Below are positions 21,235 to 45,077 of a stretch of DNA of 64,000 bases, in pieces. Below the pieces are notes generated by a model. It ran no database searches and was not told where the DNA came from. It worked only from the letters and a program-made list of their open reading frames with translations. The position numbers and the translations under genes were made by a program. The stretch's first letter is position 1, and each line of letters begins with the position of its first letter. The stretch spans positions 1-64,000 of the forward strand of contig RWJK01000154.1 of the NCBI GenBank assembly GCA_004335835.1, read 5' to 3'. The DNA is from Scenedesmus sp. ARA3 (Eukaryota; Chlorophyta; Chlorophyceae; Sphaeropleales; Scenedesmaceae).

Positions 21235-24200
21235 ATGCCATCTGTCGGACGGGTCTTACTGCTTGTTACGGCAGCCGCGTGGCTGCAATTTGTTGCAGTG
21301 GATGGCTTACGTCAGCAGTGTGCGTGTGCACAGGGCCAGCCAGGTGAGCAGGCATCACAAGTCGGCAGTCTTTGTAGTGCAGCAATACTGTTATGATCAC
21401 ATGTTGCACTGAAAGTGCAATGCCTAAGCATATGTTGGCCTCCTCTGGCCTAAGCTGTTTGGGCATACCTTAAAACATGCCCCTGGGCGTGCCTCCTGCT
21501 TTACGCAGCAACGGCTGCTTTGAAGGTTGCACAGAAAGCGGAGCTGCAGCTGCTGTTTCAGGCATGGCAGGGTGACCAATGGCTTCAGGCAGATGGATGG
21601 TTGGGTGGCACAGACCACTGCAAATGGGCTGGCGTCAGCTGCTGTAGCAATATGTCAGGCAGCCCCCAGCCACCTGTATGGCAGGATGACAACAGATGGA
21701 GGCTGGCAGACCTGCCCTGCTGCTGTTGTTGCAATAGCCCAGGCACCGTCGTGGCCCTGCAGCTTCCTGCGAACAATGTTGCTGGCAACTTCAGCGTGCT
21801 GACTGAGCAGGGCAATAGCAGCCTGGCCAGCAGTCTACTGTACGTCAACCTTGCAGGGAACAAGCAGCTTGCAGGAAGCATCGGCACTGGCATCGGCTCT
21901 TTCCAGCAGTTGCAAAGCCTTCTTGCATCGTCATGCAGTCTCAATGGCCAACTCCATGGCACCTTGGCTAGCTTACCCAGCTTAACGACACTGGATTTGT
22001 CAAACAACACCCTCACAGGCAGCATTCCGCCTGGTCTCCTGCAAGCACAGCGGCTACGCATCCTGCAGCTTGACAACAACCAATTGAGCGGCAGCATTGC
22101 CTTGCAGGAGCTGCTGCTGGCACCAGCACTTCAGACCGTCAGCCTGCGTGCCAACCGCCTGTCTGGCCCCCTGGTGTTGCCCAACACAAGCATGCTGCAG
22201 CCGCTGCAGCCGGATGGGGACGCCACTCAAGCACTTGGAACCATCACCACGAGATGGCACTCTTCACTGGATGATATTGATCTCAGCAAGAATGAGGTGA
22301 GAGAAATGACGTTGCCTCAGCTGTCCTACTGTGTTTGTCAGTTTTGGCCGGCAAGCAGTATTGAATGTATGCCGTGAGCAGTACCATGATTGCTACCTGC
22401 AACAGCGCCCATGGTGGCCACTTAAAGGTCGCTGTGTGCACCTGCCTGCCGCACCCCCTGCTGCTGCAGCTGACTGGTAGCATCCCTGCAGAGCTGCTGC
22501 TGGTGGACCTCAGGGAGCTGGACCTCAGCTTTAATATATTAGATGGCCCTCTGCCGCCATTTGGTGGCACATTGCGTGTGCTGAGGCTAGGCAACAACAG
22601 CCTGAGTGGGCAGCTGCCGGATCAGCTGGGCAGCTGGGCAATGTCAGAACTTGATTTCAGCAACAACAGGTGAGCAGGGTTTGGTGAGGGGCTCCTGCAG
22701 CATTAGTAGTGTTTCCTGCAAGTAACTTGAAAAACACGTGCATAACAAGCCAGGCACTGGCTCTGGTGATGTGCAATGGTGCTGGATGGCTTTTCAGTTG
22801 CTGTTCACGCATGCTTGCTGCCATGCATATTCAGGTTTGAGGGCACACTGCCCTGCAGTCTCGGCAGTGCAGACAACCTGGCAGTGATGCGGCTGAATGG
22901 CAACAGCAGGCTGCTGGGCACGCTGCCAGAGCAGCTGGTGCTAATGCCCCATCTGGCATTGCTTGATGCCAGGGGAACCAGCATGCAGGAACCTAAACGT
23001 CTGGCAGCCAGCAGCAGCGCAGGCAACAGCGCGCTCACAGCTGTGCCGCGCTGGATGGAAATAAGCAGGTGTGCCAGGTCTATGGACTGTTGGTGGGCTC
23101 CTTGTACATGCTGCATGGAATGCTGTTGTTGCCACTAGCTTAGTGAGCTATGCGCCGCCCCTCTGACAGCTGACAAGGTATGTCAAGTCAAAACCATTGC
23201 TCATGTGCACCCCAGGTCGCTGCAGCACGCTGCTACGCCAGCTGCATCAATGCAGTGATGTACATGAGTTGACATTTCCTGCTCTGCTTGTTGTGCCGTG
23301 CTTGCAGTTTGTCTGCTGAGCACCTGCAGCATCTGGAGGTGCCTGGCGGAGGAGCTGAGCAGCACATACCTGCCACCTGCCCAGTAGTTGGTATCACAGG
23401 AAAGGACACCACGCTGTTGCTGGTGGACCCATACTACTATCAGTTTGTGGGCTGTGTGTGCCAGGATGGATATACGTCAGCAATCACGGAGACAAACAAC
23501 TCAGCAGTTGCAATGGTGTGCAAGAAGCAGCCCTCGGCAAAGGTGGGCATTCCACACCAACATCAACAAGCTCCAGTGTTGGTGCAATGGTTGCAGGATG
23601 TACATGTAACAGCAGGATCTGATGCATACAGTAGTCATGTGTGGCAGCATGGCGTTAGTCATACCGTTGTGATGCTCTTGCTGTACATCACACCAACACA
23701 AAGAACTTTGCACCACAGTAACACGCAGCAGCAAAACTTTGCCATGCCGCCCTGTCTCATTGCCTGCAGGGCCCTAGGGTGGACCCGCGCCTGGTGGCAT
23801 TTCTGGTCGGTGCAGTTGTGGTGGTGGGTGCAGCTGCCCTGGGGACAGCTGTTGCCTTTGTCTGGGTGCGCAAGCAGGTGGTCGAGGTGCTGAGGGCGCG
23901 CAGGCGGCGCGCGCTGCCGCCGCAGGTCAGGATGCCTGTCACGCTCGTGAGCACTGACATTGCAGGCAGCACCGAGCTGTGGGAGTGGGACACACAGCAG
24001 GCAGCTGAGGTGGGTTGTGTTCTGCAGGGATTGGGGAGCTGCTACTTGCCTCCTTGTCTGCTGGCATGCACGGATGCCCTTTCATGACAATCCTCCCTCT
24101 GTGACCTGCGTATCATCCTGCAGTGTAGCAGAAGCAGCTGCCATGAATGTCCTTGCCGGGCAACCAAGGTGACATAAAGCTGCCTGTGCTGTGCCTGATG

Positions 24201-27200
24201 TGTGCTGTGGTGCTGCTTACTGCCCTCGGCTCAGGCTGTTGACCTGCATGACAAGGTGCTGCGGCAGTACCTGTCCGACTTCGGTGGTTATGAGGTTACT
24301 ACGGAGGGCGATGCTTTCCTGGTGGCATTCCACGACCCAGCAGAGGCTGTGGGTTACTGCCTAACAGTGCAACTGGCGTTGCAAGGTGAGTTAATGCGTC
24401 ATGTAGTGCTGTGATGGCAGGTCACATGCATACACACGCTGGCAGCTCTGTACCGACAGCAGCACATGCCAAATGCATGAATTGGTGCATGCGCTTAGGT
24501 AGCAGCACACGCCCGCAATGTGGCTTGCTGTACCTGCCCAAATGTTTTGCGCTCACTGCAAAAATGCAAACTCCCGCACTGGCCGCCCGCAGATGCGAGC
24601 TGGAGCGAGCAAGTCTTGTGCTGGGCGGCAAAGCACCTGCCCAAGCCACAGCATGTGCCATTGCAGCGCAGCATCAGCCAGCCTGGCATCCCAAGCGGAT
24701 GCACGCTTTGTGCAGAGCAGAAGCTTGCGTTATCAGGTGCAGGCAGCAGAGGGGTAGTGCCACACCTAGCCCTGCCCGGCCAGGCAGAGCTCAGCTGTCA
24801 CCATCAGCAACAACAGCAGCAGCATTTGCTGGGCGCACAGCAGGGTCTGCCTGCAGAGCTGCAGCTGCCACAGCTGTTCAGGGGCTTGCGAGTGCGGATG
24901 GCAGTTGCCAGCGGCATTGCAGACGGGGTGAAGCTGCACAAAGTGACGAGGCGCGTGGAGTACAACGGCACAACCATGCGGCGGGTGCAGGCTGTAGCAG
25001 ACGCGCCAGAAGGTGGCCAGGTAAGCTGCAGCACCTATGAATCGCAGCCGTTAGCAAGCGCTGCCTTGTTTATATATGCTGCGGCTTGACCAGTTGCCGG
25101 CAGTTTCGTGCAGCTTAGCAAGCCAGGATACACTGGTGCACCTGGTGCATGTGTAGTGCGTGCGGCTGGCGACAAATATGCATGTTGATGCATGGCACAG
25201 CAGCAGATCAAAAGCTGCACATGTGGCTGTTTCTGCTGCTGCCGCAGGTTGTCATTGATGGGGAGACATTCAAGGGCATCAACACCAACTTGCCCCAGCT
25301 TGGCGAGCGCGTAGCAGAGGTACTGCGCAAGCACACAGGCAAGGCGCCCGACCAGGTTAAGCTAGGTGGCTTGGCTGGGCAGCTGACACGGTCCGCGTCA
25401 CTCTGTGGCTCTGTTGACGGGAAGTCAGCAGCTGCAGGCTTCATGGTAGCAGGCGGCAGCAGTGACAGCGCTTGCAAGGCATGTATGGCTGACACCAGGT
25501 TTGGCAGCGAGGTATCCATAGCATCTAGTCAGCTGGCGCTGCAGCACCGTAAGCAGCACCAGCCGAGCACCAGCCTTGCAGTGTATGTGCAGGCCGGACA
25601 CAGCAATGAGGCTCTCAACTGCTCAGCGACACACCATAGTCACCCAAGACAGGACTGCTGCACATCATATCAAGGGTCAGTGTCTGGTGGTTGCAGTTGC
25701 AGCTCCAGCCGAGCCACTAGCCCAGAGCTGTTGCATCAAGCTGCTGCAGGAAGATCACCTGCAGCATGTCAAGCTGACAGTTGGCCAGAGTCTGTGGCAG
25801 GATCAGACCCCTCATTTTGCAGCAGTCCTTCTATGGTTGCAGCAGCAGGCATGTCATTCACTACCATGCTGGCAGCATCAGGCGCATCCTTCTACAGCCC
25901 AATTATTGAAAGGCACCCGCCAATAGCAGGATTGGCAGCTTCAGAGACAAATGGTTCACTTGCAGCTGCCAGCAGCCCAGAAGCTGGTGTCAGGTACAAG
26001 CATGGTGGCAGCAGCACTCCTGGCGGTAGTGACAACGCCCTGATGGCTGGCAGTCCACACTTGAGGGTGAGGCTGTCACCCTTGAGCATTGGTGCAAGGG
26101 CCCAACAACAGCTTTCACCAGGCAGATCAGGGCAGCAGCAGCACCAGCAGCAACACCTGTGGCAGGAGCGCACTGCAGCTGATACCTGGCATCACAGCAA
26201 AAGCCCAGCGAATTCAGCTTCAGAGCAGCACGGCGCTGCAGCAGAGATCTCAGAGCAATGTGCACCCATATCCTACACAGGCTTGTTGCTGCAAGGGATT
26301 GCAGAGCACCAGCTGTTGGACAACGCAGAAACTGAAGATGACAGCAGCCAGGTGCCTAGGGCACAGCTGGACAGGCCTTGGGTTGACTGCAGCGGTGCGA
26401 GCGTCATGCTGCTGGGCGATGCTGATGATGATAATGAGGGTGAGGAGGAGTGTGGTGAGGCAGTGCGGCTGGCTATGCTCAAGGGCAAATCGATGCGGCG
26501 GCTGACACCAAGTGCTACTGGAGCACTGCCAGCAGGAGAAGCGGAGTTGCCAGTCAGTCCCTCTGCGGAAAGCGTGCAGCAACAGCAGCAGCAGCAGCAG
26601 CAGCAGCATCAGGGCCATACGCAGCCTCGGCAGCACCTGCAGCCTCACCAACATCAGCATGTGGTCTTTTCGGACTGCATGATCAACTCCGCAGCCCTGC
26701 CCATGCACACACCGCCAGCCGCCAGAACTTCCGCTGCTGCTGCAGCAGCAGTTGCAGCCAGCCTGCCTGTACTCGCGGCGTCGGCTCGTGCTAGCAGCGC
26801 ACCCACGCAGGTACTGCTCACAGCAGCAGCAACAGCAGCAGCTGCACCTGCAAGCCGCCCGCATTTCAGGCATACTGCGTCTGGTGTTGGGGCGACATTG
26901 AGGGCCAAGCCATACGTTCGCAAGCCCTCTGCATCTTTGTCTGGCACCATCACAGACCACCTGAGGTCAGCAGTCAGCTCAATCAGCAGCTTGCTGCACC
27001 CTTTCAGCAGGTCAGTCAGCTCAACAGGCACCAGCAGCAGGGGGCACAGCAAGCAGCACGCGCAGCAGCGCAGCGAGCACCATGCGGCTAGTGGCAATGA
27101 CGCTGCTGCCAGCCGCAAGGCGCGGCGGCAGGCTGACAGGCAGTTGTGTGGCAGTGTGCTGGTGCTGGACATGGGCTTGCACAAGCTGCCTGGTGTTGCA

Positions 27201-30200
27201 GAGGCAGTGCAGCTGGTGTCGGTGCTGCCGCCGGTGCTGGAGGGCCGTGCGCATTGCTTCCCAGCACTGAACACGCTGCAGCAGCATACGCCGGGCTACC
27301 TGGTGAGCAAGTGCTGTTTTGAAATGTTTGAAGGTGTCCCGTGCTGTCATTGTTGCCTGAGTAACAGTGGGATGCATTGTGTTGCTTGGATCTGTAGCCT
27401 TGCCTCTCACCTGATCCTCGCTTGAAATCTGGGGCCGAAGCTGATGCGCAATTTTGTGCATTGTGAGTGGAGTGATTTGGGAGGGTACAACATGCGGTTC
27501 GTGCACTCTATGCATGTGTGCACTGCAGGATGCTCCAGCAACCCAGGCATCCCCGCTACATGTGGAGGTGTCGCATCAGCGCTCCGGCAGAAGCAGCGCA
27601 TCACGCCTGGCACGCAGCGTGTGCCCGCTGCCGCCCGTGGTGATGGTGTTCTGTGCAGTGGACGGCTACAGGCAGATGTCCCTGGCTGACAGGCAAGTGT
27701 TGCAGCACAGCGGTGCACTGGCCAGAAAGTGCAGTCGGTATGTATGTGTTGTGCTGGGGGTGCTCGGCTGGCTTTGCTGACAGCGTGGCTGGCACTGCCC
27801 AAGTAGCTTACAGGGGCGGACAGAGCATGCAGTGCCAGGCATGAGCTGTTCATGTTGTTATGCAGAAAGCTGCTGCTGTGAAACGCATGCGTGACTGCAC
27901 CTCGCCTCCACGGCTGACATGCTGCTGTTCCTGTTCGCACCTGTCAACACCGCTCCACCAGGCCTGCTGCGCAAGAGATGCTGCAGCACTACTCTGATGT
28001 GGTGCGCTGGACGCTGCTGGTGGCTGGCGGCTACGAGTGCCAGGAGCAGGAGGGCAACTACATGATTGCCTTCCACTCGGCTGCGGCTGCACTGGAGTGG
28101 GCGCTGCTGCTGCAGGAGGCTCTGAATGGAAGTCAACTGGAGCAATGAGGTGGGAAGCGGCAGCAGTGCTGGTCAACAGCAAATCAGCTGTTTTGTGGAT
28201 ACAATTAAATTTGTGACTGTAAATGGTTTGAAAAGTATATGCTCAAGCCGCACATCAAAGCCAAATCCAAGTAGCAACTTGTGTCAGCTTGCTGACAGGG
28301 CTCCTGCCATGTGACACATGTGCCACCAGGCCAACCCATGTCTCCTGTGTGGTGATACCTGTTGTGCTACGTGCAGGTGCTGGCACTGCCAGGTGCTGAG
28401 GAGGTTGTCACCTACGAGCACGGCTGCAGCACCCTGCACTTCAGGGGTCCCCGTGTGCGCATAGGGCTGTACAGAGGAGTCCCCACGCGTGTGGTGCCGC
28501 ACACCACCACTGGTCGCGCTGACTACTTTGGCTGCCTGGTGAACCGCGCAGCGCGCTACTGCCACACTGCAGCACATGGTGGCCAGGCGGTGGCACCAAG
28601 GGAGCTGGTGGAGGAGCTGGTGAGCGCTGGGCCCACCATGTGCCTGTGACAGGCTATTTAGCCTGCAGCTGCATCAAGACATATGGCATGCGTGGACTAT
28701 GTTGCCGCTGTTAGCAGCTGGTTACTTGAGCAAGCCACTGGTGATGGTGGTACGCAGCTCAGATCACAGTGGCAGGATGTACCGTCAGCTGTGCAAGGAA
28801 AGCATGCAGTAGATTCAAAACCCAGACGACGACAAGTAACCTGCCACTGCTCCCTGCAGATCACCAGCTGGTGTGGCGTGTGCCCTGCACACCTGCCAGA
28901 GGAGCAGGGCCCTCCCTGGGTGCTGCTGGCAGAGCCGCGGCACGACGAGCAGGGCACAGCATGCTGGGCGCGTGCACCAGGCGCATTTGTGCCGTCATCT
29001 GTGAACTGCAGCATGGCAGGCAGGGCCAGCGACTGCGCTGCCGGTGGGGTTGGAGATGACCCGGTGTGGGGTCCTGTAGGGGGGCGTTACCTGAGGAGGT
29101 CGAGCAGCGGCAATGCTGGGCGCAGGTGGGCAGTCATTGGGCAACTGAGGCAGTGACCTTGAGCCTGTGTGGCCTTCTTTTTTGGGAAAGCTGTACAACG
29201 TGCGCGCACCACAGCTGTGCAGCTTTGCATGGCATGGTCTTGCAATGCTCGAGTGGGATGCTTTTGCAGTTACAGCAGCTACATTACTGCCAACACCTGT
29301 GCTCGCGCTGCCAATCTTTTCAAGCATTGAGTGTTGTTTTTGCGCTTGCAGGGTCAGCAATACAGCAGCAGACCCAGGCACCCGCCGGCAAAGCAGCTGC
29401 AGCAGTGTACACACCTGCCCATGTACGCCTTCAGCAGCGGCGGCAGCAGCAGCAGCCTGCGGCACCCCAACAGGCAGGATCGGCAGCAACAGCAGCATGT
29501 CAGGTGCGCCCATGGCCAGCGGCAAGTCGTTCACTGGCAAGAAGCTTGGCCGCAGCAGCTTGCACGCATCGAACGCAGTGCCAGACATGTCAGCGCTGTA
29601 CACAATGCGCAGAGTTGCAGCCGAGCAGGCGGCGGACTTTGAGGGCGACACCAGCAACAGCAGCAGCAGTGGCCGGACAAGTGTGCGGCACTGCGGCGTT
29701 GGCCCTGCGGCTGCTGCCGGCCCCACAGCCAGCCCTGCTGGTGGGACAGGTGCAGCAGGCAACACTTCCAGAGGCGGTGGATCAGGCGGTGCTGTGGGCA
29801 GGTCCAGCAAGAAAGACAGAGGCAGCAGAAACGCCAGCAGCTCCGTGCATGGTATGCGGCGCTTCAGTGCTGGCTGGGACATTGACTGCGGCCTTGCTGC
29901 TGCGCTGTATGCGCGGCTGGTGCTGCACAAGTGGAGCTGGGCTGACACGCTGATGGTGCATGTGAGGAGCCATTTGTGAATTGCTGGAGATGCTGCAGCA
30001 CAATGGGCTCACGTCGCAGTCTCTGGGCACTAGTAATGTTGCTGGTTGATGTTGCTGGTCAGGCACAGCATTGCTGGCATTGACTGTGCATGCTGGCCTG
30101 CCACCTCCAGCATCTCTGCCTGCCCTGCAAAGACTGGGCAGCCCAATTATGTTTACAATATTTATTGACTCTGCACAACACCAACCGCCGTGTTATTAAG

Positions 30201-31002
30201 TGACGCCTGCGGTGGTCTGCCTGCTGTACATGCCTGCTTGCAGGACCTTGGAGAGTTCACCTTCAAAGGCATCAGCGGCTCCCACAGCCTGGTGTCAGTC
30301 TGCACCAAGGCGCTGGCAGGCCGCAGCTTCCCTCATGCGCTGCGCAAGGCCAAAGGCACGCAGCTCACACGCGGCCAGGGCCTGCTGTATCAGCTGCACA
30401 TGCAGGCAGCTGCAGTTGAGCGCGCATCCAGCTTGCCCAGCCCCAGATTCAGCAGCAGACACCAGCATCAGCAAGCTGACTTCCAGCTGGCAGAGTGTGA
30501 GGCTGCTGCAGCTGCTTTTGCGGCTGAGCGCGCATCTAGCTTGCCTTGCAGCCCCAGCTATGGCAGGCAGCAGCAACAGCTAGGGTTTGAGTTTCTTCCA
30601 ACATGGACAGAAAACAACATGGCTCAAGCAGTGAATGGCGCCGCAGCTGGCGTTAGCCTGGATGGCTGCGGTGGCTGCTTGCATGAGCTGCAGCTGGACA
30701 GCATGGCTGCGGTGGACAGGCAGGCCGTGCTGCCGGCAGGCAGGCAGTCATCGCTGGGGCTTGCTGAAGCAACACCTGCAGCAGCAGCAAGCTGTTGCTG
30801 TGGCAGCAGCAGCTGTTCAGCAAGTACAGCAGCTGCAGGATGTGACACCAGCCCAACCAGCCGCCCCGTCACAGACGAGGCTATGGGATGCTGTTCCAGG
30901 GCTGTGGGATGCTGCTCCAGAGCAGGAGCACAGCTGCAGCTGAGTGCGGCGCCGTCCCTCACAGCGCCAGCAGGGCACATCGCAGATCTGCAGCAGTCTT
31001 GA
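21235..31002 (+). CDS. LRR receptor-like protein with two class III nucleotide cyclase domains
   Basis: Fifteen exons: 21235-21343, 21509-22296, 22470-22669, 22835-23068, 23308-23542, 23770-24009, 24235-24385, 24593-25020, 25248-27302, 27529-27737, 27962-about 28145, 28377-28619, 28860-29125, 29352-29961, 30244-31002; about 2,236 residues. All joints keep phase except that after exon 11, where an in-frame TGA (28146) precedes the first good donor. Order: signal peptide (1-24); LRR cap (WAGVSCC) and plant-type repeats (LTTLDLSNNTLTGSIPPGLL) to about 450; Cys-rich CVCQDGY; transmembrane helix about 530-552; cyclase 1 (VTLVSTDIAGSTELW; EVTTEGDAFLVAF); 680-residue low-complexity linker; cyclase 2 (GGYECQEQEGNYMIAF; DYFGCLVNRAARY); then LGEFTFKGISG and a Ser/Gln-rich tail. 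It should make cAMP or cGMP at a membrane; the adenine-selecting Lys is Thr in domain 1, so the product is uncertain. Confidence 0.85.
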
Positions 31003-44650: not shown

Positions 44651-44797
44651 GTTGAAAGTCAGAGTACGATCGGCAGACAGAGCAGCGCCATTAGCATTGT
44701 CATGAAGACAGTCGCAAGCCCTGCAGCTCCGTTGAAAGTCAGAGTACGATCGGCAGACAGAGCAGCGCCATTAGCATTGTCATGAAGACAGTCGCAA
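44651..44797 (-). repeat. Perfect 67-bp direct duplication, 80-bp period
   Basis: Positions 44651-44717 and 44731-44797 are identical over 67 bases, beginning GTTGAAAGTCAGAGTACGAT. On the minus strand each copy encodes FATVFMTMLMALLCLPIVL and a stop codon. Confidence 0.95.
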
Positions 44798-45077
44798 ACC
44801 CCTTGTTATCCAGTTTACTGCTGCGGGCTTTATATTTATATCGCATTATTAAGCTGCAGACATCTGATCCAATATTAAAGCCGTAGCCGTGCTCGGGGGT
44901 AGTTGCGTCTGCGCCATTGTGAAATATCTCATACTGCTGGGCTAGCAGCATGCAGCGCGGTGATGGCCCAGCCTGGGCAGGCAACTCGGTGAACGGGTTG
45001 TGCTGCTGCCCCAAACGTTTCTGCATACATGTTACAAAATATATCGCCTCACTACAGAGGAACGTGACGGCAACCAC
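44739..45077 (-). CDS. Possible tail-anchored small protein
   Basis: A 112-residue frame from Met 45077 (MVAVTFLCSEAIYFVTCMQK). It is not low-complexity, in contrast to chance frames here. The body contains GQQHNPFTELPAQAG and EHGYGFNIGSDVCSLIMRYK; the last 20 residues are a hydrophobic helix, FATVFMTMLMALLCLPIVL, placed as a tail anchor. I do not recognise the family. An upstream exon is possible. The hydrophobic tail and stop codon are duplicated exactly 80 bp downstream, so the present 3' end lies within a recent duplication. It could also be a fragment or pseudogene. Confidence 0.35.
   Translation of the reverse strand: MVAVTFLCSEAIYFVTCMQKRLGQQHNPFTELPAQAGPSPRCMLLAQQYEIFHNGADATTPEHGYGFNIGSDVCSLIMRYKYKARSSKLDNKGFATVFMTMLMALLCLPIVL

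Follow-up and report, generated by a model that had tools for sequence, protein, structure and literature searches.

The question raised by this locus is whether a leucine-rich repeat (LRR) ectodomain of the land-plant receptor type is joined, within one gene of a green alga, to a two-domain class III nucleotide cyclase. The window analysed, a stretch of 64,000 nucleotides from Scenedesmus sp. ARA3 (contig C87 in the following), had initially been annotated as encoding such a receptor. Rebuilding of the gene from the + strand gave 15 exons between 21235 and 31002, with the ATG at 21235 and a stop codon ending at 31002. The encoded order is signal peptide, plant-type LRRs, Cys-containing stalk, a single transmembrane (TM) helix and two cyclase domains (C1, then C2) that are separated by a long linker of low complexity, distributed over the exons as follows:

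21235..21343, + strand: exon 1, start codon and signal peptide with the core VGRVLLLVTAAAWLQFVAV (hydropathy 1.6-1.9)
21509..22296, + strand: exon 2, N-terminal cap motif DHCKWAGVSCC and first LRRs (own-genome match to C1536; PDB matches to plant LRR receptor kinases)
22470..22669, + strand: exon 3, LRRs (LTGSIPAELL...; PDB matches to plant LRR receptor kinases)
22835..23068, + strand: exon 4, final LRRs (PDB matches to plant LRR receptor kinases)
23308..23542, + strand: exon 5, stalk with the family motif DPxYYxFxGCxC (exon reading and paralogs)
23770..24009, + strand: exon 6, TM helix LVAFLVGAVVVVGAAALGT, basic juxtamembrane stretch and start of C1 with the first metal Asp (TDIAGST)
24235..24385, + strand: exon 7, C1 with the second metal Asp (EGDAF)
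24593..25020, + strand: exon 8, second half of C1, transition-state Asn/Arg replaced (YNGTTMRRVQAV)
25248..27302, + strand: exon 9 (2,055 bases, open), end of C1, Q/A/S-rich linker and, as its last ~55 residues, VLVLDMGLHKL...TPGYL
27529..27692, + strand: exon 10, start of C2 with Ala at the first Asp position (FCAVDGY), followed by a GC-AG intron
27962..28149, + strand: exon 11, middle of C2, second Asp replaced (EGNYM), with the frame shifted by a net one base close to the 3' end
28377..28619, + strand: exon 12, second half of C2, VNRAAR kept
28860-29125, 29352-29961 and 30244-31002, + strand: exons 13-15, low-complexity tail up to the TGA

Thirteen of the 14 introns have GT-AG borders and intron 10 has GC-AG. 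Exons 1-10, which span the LRRs, the stalk, the TM helix, C1 and the start of C2, are consistent in phase; the phase consistency claimed initially for the linked exons thus holds up to this point and breaks down at exon 11, where the frame slips within C2. Likewise, the 2,236-residue model proposed before was not reproduced, and the in-frame model that we obtained comprises 2,211 residues. The parts themselves were recovered as annotated: gene rebuilding, hydropathy and Pfam together revealed the signal peptide, the LRRs, the C-W-x-G-V-x-C cap motif, the stalk, one TM helix, C1 and C2.

A Pfam search of the gene model identified both halves of the protein above the cut-offs of the database (LRR_1, 3.6e-15; LRR_4, 3.2e-10; Guanylate_cyc, 4.5e-6). 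For PF00211, C1 scored 26.8 bits against a cut-off of 21.9, the second half of C2 fell below it with 13.1 bits, and the first half of C2 gave no Pfam match. The best PDB matches of the ectodomain were plant LRR receptor kinases, namely GSO1 (1.7e-60) followed by PEPR1 and FLS2. Judged by name, the best 60 of 147 PDB matches (E <=0.001) were plant receptor kinases and co-receptors, receptor-like proteins, LRR extensins and polygalacturonase inhibitors, apart from a few generic kinases and one antifreeze polypeptide. The LRRNT_2 cap (PF08263) is visible as a motif in the window gene without a Pfam match; C1536 reached 20.7 bits, just at the cut-off, and the member C56b gave none. The closest PDB relatives of C1 were the trypanosome cyclases GRESAG 4.3 (6e-15) and GRESAG 4.1 (2e-14), which C2 matched weakly (0.0008 and 0.002, respectively). 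Pfam scans of the gene-model pieces found neither a cytosolic kinase family nor a PP2C domain, and no Pfam domain in the low-complexity linker of exon 9 or in the tail encoded by exons 13-15. In NCBIfam, residues 1-806 matched XopAC and XopAE far below the cut-offs (scores of 48 against 450 and 33 against 600), and these hits were dismissed as LRR look-alikes. An AlphaFold2 prediction of exon 2 alone had a mean pLDDT of 36 and was not used. Elsewhere in the 64-kb window, ten other long open reading frames had no Pfam match, Rfam and tRNA scans were empty, and an 80-bp unit occurs in about two tandem copies (98% identical) at 44651-44801, outside the gene.

Signal peptide and TM helix were called from hydropathy alone. 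The helix comprises residues 530-548 with a hydropathy maximum of 2.45, and the first metal Asp of C1 lies about 35 residues further on. Among seven members measured (the window gene, C1536, C1265, C1557, C1061, C56a and C56b), all have a TM segment (19-residue hydropathy 2.2-2.9) followed by a net positive stretch, and in all the distance from TM to metal Asp is 28-39 residues. The TM helix, its basic inner flank and this narrow spacing fit an LRR domain on the outside and a fixed coupling distance to the cyclase.

Paralogs were searched with C1 as query (E up to 0.1) in the same genome assembly (87.3 Mb, 1,567 contigs), which gave 20 C1 places on 19 contigs:

C1 places: C87 (window), C1536, C810, C648, C1303, C1392, C1548, C56 (two), C1557, C903, C1265, C1061, C1435, C830, C288, C755, C1264, C3 and C983
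LRR upstream of C1 by search (E up to 0.1): C87, C1536, C1061, C1557, C1392, C1265 and C3
LRR upstream of C1 by reading: C810, C56b, C1435 and C648

Hence 11 of the 20 places have LRRs ahead of C1 on its own strand (seven by search, four by reading), a count that for C830, C288, C755, C1264 and C983 relies on the search. At C1548 and C903, the 4.5-5 kb read upstream held no clear LRR, with one regular-expression match in C903; at C56a and C1303 the contig ends about 1.4-1.5 kb upstream of C1. With the window excluded, the search found an upstream LRR at 6 of 19 places, compared with 0.08 that would be expected within 8 kb if placement were random, a value that ignores LRR clustering. C2 was found downstream of C1 on the same strand at 15 of the 20 places (search, E up to 0.1), including weak matches (0.002-0.04) at C1061, C1557, C1548 and C56b; the same search found none for C1435, C903, C830, C288 and C3. 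The stretch VLVLDMGLHKL...TPGYL at the end of exon 9 also precedes C2 in C1536, and exon 2 matched C1536 in the own-genome search with 40% identity (3.5e-21). C1061 and C1557 each have the last LRR and the stalk in a single open frame, and likewise the stalk end, TM and C1. This recurrence within the same genome is, at the level of sequence, the strongest support for one gene, and it supports a multi-gene family of LRR receptor cyclases rather than one odd gene model. The central statement of the initial annotation, that a green alga has a class III cyclase with one TM helix and an LRR ectodomain of the plant type, thereby stands as a reading of the sequence, the same order being present at other loci.

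On C56, two members lie in tandem on the - strand near 30.6 kb and 14.4 kb, which suggests a local duplication. Tandem copies of single exons occur inside members (L072:4190-5314 in C1557; L074:3105-3468 and 3953-4380 in C1061; C1265:113305-114072; C56:29846-30738; L039 in C1303), among them, in C1557, 4.7 copies of a 241-bp unit with TM, juxtamembrane and C1 start and, in C1061, a stalk unit of 138 bp. Alternative exons, decaying duplicates and assembly effects are conceivable explanations; the repeat search reported no tandem exon array in the window gene. Codon differences between the window gene and C1536 at positions 1/2/3 were 12/7/26 and 17/14/25 in C1, 8/4/19 and 5/5/13 in the second half of C2, 15/16/15 in exon 11, 25/22/25 in the stalk and 105/90/121 in LRR exon 2. 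An excess at the third position is thus clear only in C1 and the second half of C2, absent in exon 11 and slight or absent in the LRR and stalk exons.

The distribution of catalytic residues over C1 and C2 was read across the family. The first metal Asp of C1 (TD[IV]) is present at 13 of 14 places examined, the exon not having been identified in C1548, and the second at all 14; in C1265, one of the additional copies of the C1 exon has EGGSF. All six second halves of C1 that were read (C87, C1536, C648, C1303, C810 and C1435) lack the Asn of the Asn/Arg motif, a tally that uses the ungapped register of the GRESAG alignment and assigns C810 by position; C1435 still shows the Arg if another register is taken. 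C2 has retained N-x-A-A-R in all nine members in which one exon carries both residues (C87, C1536, C755, C56, C1303, C810, C1392, C1265 and C648), a count that leaves out C1264 and C983, where the residues are not within one exon match. All four members read for the first Asp of C2 have lost it (Ala in C87 and C1303, Thr in C1536, Arg in C1392). The second-Asp loop of C2, read in nine members, has the residue replaced in C87, C1536, C1303, C810, C1392 and C1264; C1265 and C56 read QEGDL and C983 reads QEADL in a longer loop, so this loss is not uniform. With both metal Asp in C1 and Asn/Arg in C2, the full set is found in the C1:C2 pair and in neither domain alone. As these losses are complementary, each pair should form one active site, as a tethered heterodimer. 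The receptor reading given initially therefore stands for the architecture, as judged by sequence, and is amended in two points: the two cyclase domains should share one active site instead of having two, and the window copy has a frame slip in C2. A prediction of the substrate from the specifying positions of C2 was dropped, since their alignment is ambiguous, the second-Asp loop aligning with or without a one-residue gap.

Three other explanations of the locus have to be weighed against a single receptor gene. Two adjacent genes could be present, one for a secreted LRR protein with its end near exon 5, the other for a cyclase, soluble or membrane-bound, that starts from exon 6. The pentanucleotide TGTAA, the poly(A) signal of green algae, occurs on the + strand between 21235 and 35500 only at 23605-23609 in intron 5 and at 28218-28222 in intron 11, just past the TGA of exon 11, and none follows the stop codon of the gene up to 35500. 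The copy in intron 5, an ATG after the TM helix (MPVTLV) that could begin a soluble cyclase and the fact that the one-gene model was built from genomic sequence and no cDNA all speak for two genes. However, the frame of exon 5 stays open through intron 5 (23543-23769) to a stop at 23893, so that an LRR gene ending near the TGTAA at 23605 would lack a stop codon. Moreover, the TM exon lacks an ATG in the stretch from the upstream in-frame stop to the TM helix, which is therefore most simply read from an upstream exon. Taken together with the 11 of 20 C1 places preceded by LRRs and the open frames of C1061 and C1557 that bridge LRR to stalk and stalk to TM and C1, this renders separate genes highly improbable. 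Transcript forms of the one gene are a related matter: retention of intron 5 would yield an LRR-stalk protein without TM ending at 23893, and early polyadenylation in intron 5 or 11, giving a TM-less LRR protein or a C2-truncated receptor, deserves a look. A cyclase pair that is catalytically dead and acts as a binding or scaffold module would agree with the incomplete catalytic set of each domain and with the weak Pfam score of C2. We regard it as improbable, though somewhat less so than separate genes, because the two domains have lost mostly complementary residues and the paralogs read have kept the rest of the set, as expected for a shared site.

More weight has to be given to the possibility that the architecture of the family is real and the window copy itself is a pseudogene, or a truncated receptor with C1 and half of C2 that ends at the TGA of exon 11. 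In this exon, the C2 frame LLVAGGYECQEQEGNYMIAFHSAAAALEWALLLQEALN (...LLQEALN) reaches the TGA, and the stretch NWSNE-VLALPGAEE, which adjoins a donor and resembles both C1 (ASWSEQVL) and C1536 (DMSWPARYELVL), sits in another frame. The slip could stem from an error of sequencing or assembly, from a recent mutation or from unusual splicing; the window copy may accordingly be misassembled or damaged, and its activity is in doubt as the slip lies in C2. The net one-base slip with its in-frame TGA, the TGTAA ~70 bases past this TGA and the missing third-position excess of exon 11 favour decay or truncation. Nevertheless, exons 12-15 are still open with mutually consistent phases, and the second half of C2 shares 74% and 67% identity with C1536 in two stretches with a third-position excess. 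A single-base assembly error accounts for the slip equally well, and an in-frame splice is available from a weak-looking donor at 28131 (gtcaac) to an inner acceptor at 28393, which gives the 2,211 residues. Paralogs hold C2 stretches with the motif kept. On balance, we consider a defective window copy rather unlikely, yet the most serious of the three alternatives.

Quite probably, then, the locus is one gene for a type I, single-pass LRR receptor with a split C1:C2 cyclase in which the LRR domain controls cyclic nucleotide synthesis. The LRR ectodomain and the stalk would be exposed at the cell surface, followed by the TM helix and the basic juxtamembrane stretch, with the first catalytic Asp of C1 about 35 residues on. 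C1 would provide the two metal-binding Asp and C2, brought back by the long linker to the C1 of the same molecule, the Asn/Arg side of one common site. Binding of a ligand to the LRR domain, or its pairing with a co-receptor, would alter the geometry of TM helix and juxtamembrane stretch and thereby the fit of C1 and C2, and synthesis of cAMP or cGMP would be switched. We infer from this arrangement that a cyclic nucleotide may be made upon ligand binding, as had been proposed. Exon structure, domain order, the TM helix, the complementary residue losses and the recurrence in the family support the predicted architecture well, and it appears as a new combination of known parts among receptor-type class III cyclases.

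The wider meaning of such a family depends on what green algae otherwise possess. LRR kinases were absent from chlorophytes except for two in Chlorella NC64A, and among 101 eukaryotes surveyed, chlorophytes included, LRRs and PF00211 occurred in one gene only in fungi, according to the accessible part of PMC2939053. Similarly, the available text of PMC5296948 gives no LRR receptor-like kinase for five green algal genomes. In the present assembly, an inspection by eye of 135 PF07714 and 93 LRR places (129 of 453 kinase and 88 of 172 LRR candidates scored) revealed no linkage of LRR and kinase within 8 kb; among the candidates scored, places of both kinds share one contig, C1086, about 19 kb apart. 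On C1435, where the LRRs were found by reading, a PF07714 place lies about 63 kb away. The one rbcL of this assembly (308 residues) had its best PDB matches at 689-694 bits, in a group that includes 1gk8 of Chlamydomonas reinhardtii, and the next match scored 658 bits, so that the host is most likely a chlorophyte. Matches to the chlorophyll-binding protein family PF00504 numbered 47; since this family also gave matches in the control, Synechococcus, the kinship is taken from rbcL. One can speculate, at a confidence slightly short of even, that chlorophytes, largely devoid of LRR receptor kinases, expanded LRR receptor cyclases into a family (11 to 20 genes here) which does the job of LRR kinases in land plants; its many different ectodomains would converge on a single output, a cyclic nucleotide made at the split C1:C2 site of a single-pass receptor. 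This would mean that green algae joined a plant-type LRR sensor to a second-messenger enzyme independently of its coupling to kinases in land plants, and it would supply candidate cell-surface inputs for algal cyclic nucleotides. The coupling of signal to catalysis by a split site on a single-pass receptor would be testable with few constructs.

Each part of the putative receptor has a counterpart in known systems. As in the land-plant LRR receptor kinases GSO1, PEPR1, FLS2 and BRI1, a signal peptide, an LxGxIP solenoid, a C-W-x-G-V-x-C cap and a single TM helix are present, whereas the algal gene has a cyclase pair where the kinase sits. The metal Asp in C1 and Asn/Arg in C2 are shared with the transmembrane and soluble adenylyl cyclases of animals, in which each C1:C2 pair forms one active site from these residues; the animal enzymes have two six-helix bundles or are soluble, in contrast to one TM helix and an LRR ectodomain in the alga. 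The receptor adenylate cyclases of trypanosomatids (GRESAG4/ESAG4), the closest solved relatives of C1, are also single-pass proteins with a cytosolic class III domain. Their ectodomain is periplasmic-binding-like and not of the LRR type, and their one catalytic domain homodimerises, whereas the algal protein has C1 and C2 with complementary losses and an LRR ectodomain. A description of the order LRR, TM and cyclase was not found in the literature searched, a scope that left most subscription journals and all preprints outside, nor was the pairing of LRR and cyclase found described outside fungi, where the repeats are intracellular; the word cyclase is absent from the main text of PMC13091385. 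Fungal adenylate cyclases (Cyr1/MAC1) likewise combine LRRs and a class III cyclase in one protein. They have no TM helix and contain PP2C and often RA domains, and Cyr1 of C. albicans senses muramyl peptides via its LRRs, as stated in the accessible sections of PMC2939053; the algal receptor, unlike them, has a TM helix and no PP2C or RA domain was found in it. Ion-channel cyclases are described for oomycetes in the available portion of PMC12223298. In Acanthamoeba, 67 receptor nucleotidyl cyclases with an extracellular domain, one TM helix and a cyclase flanked by two kinase domains are described (PMC4053784, as far as its text is available). The flanking kinases set these proteins apart from the algal family, which resembles them in being large and in combining an extracellular domain, one TM helix and a cyclase.
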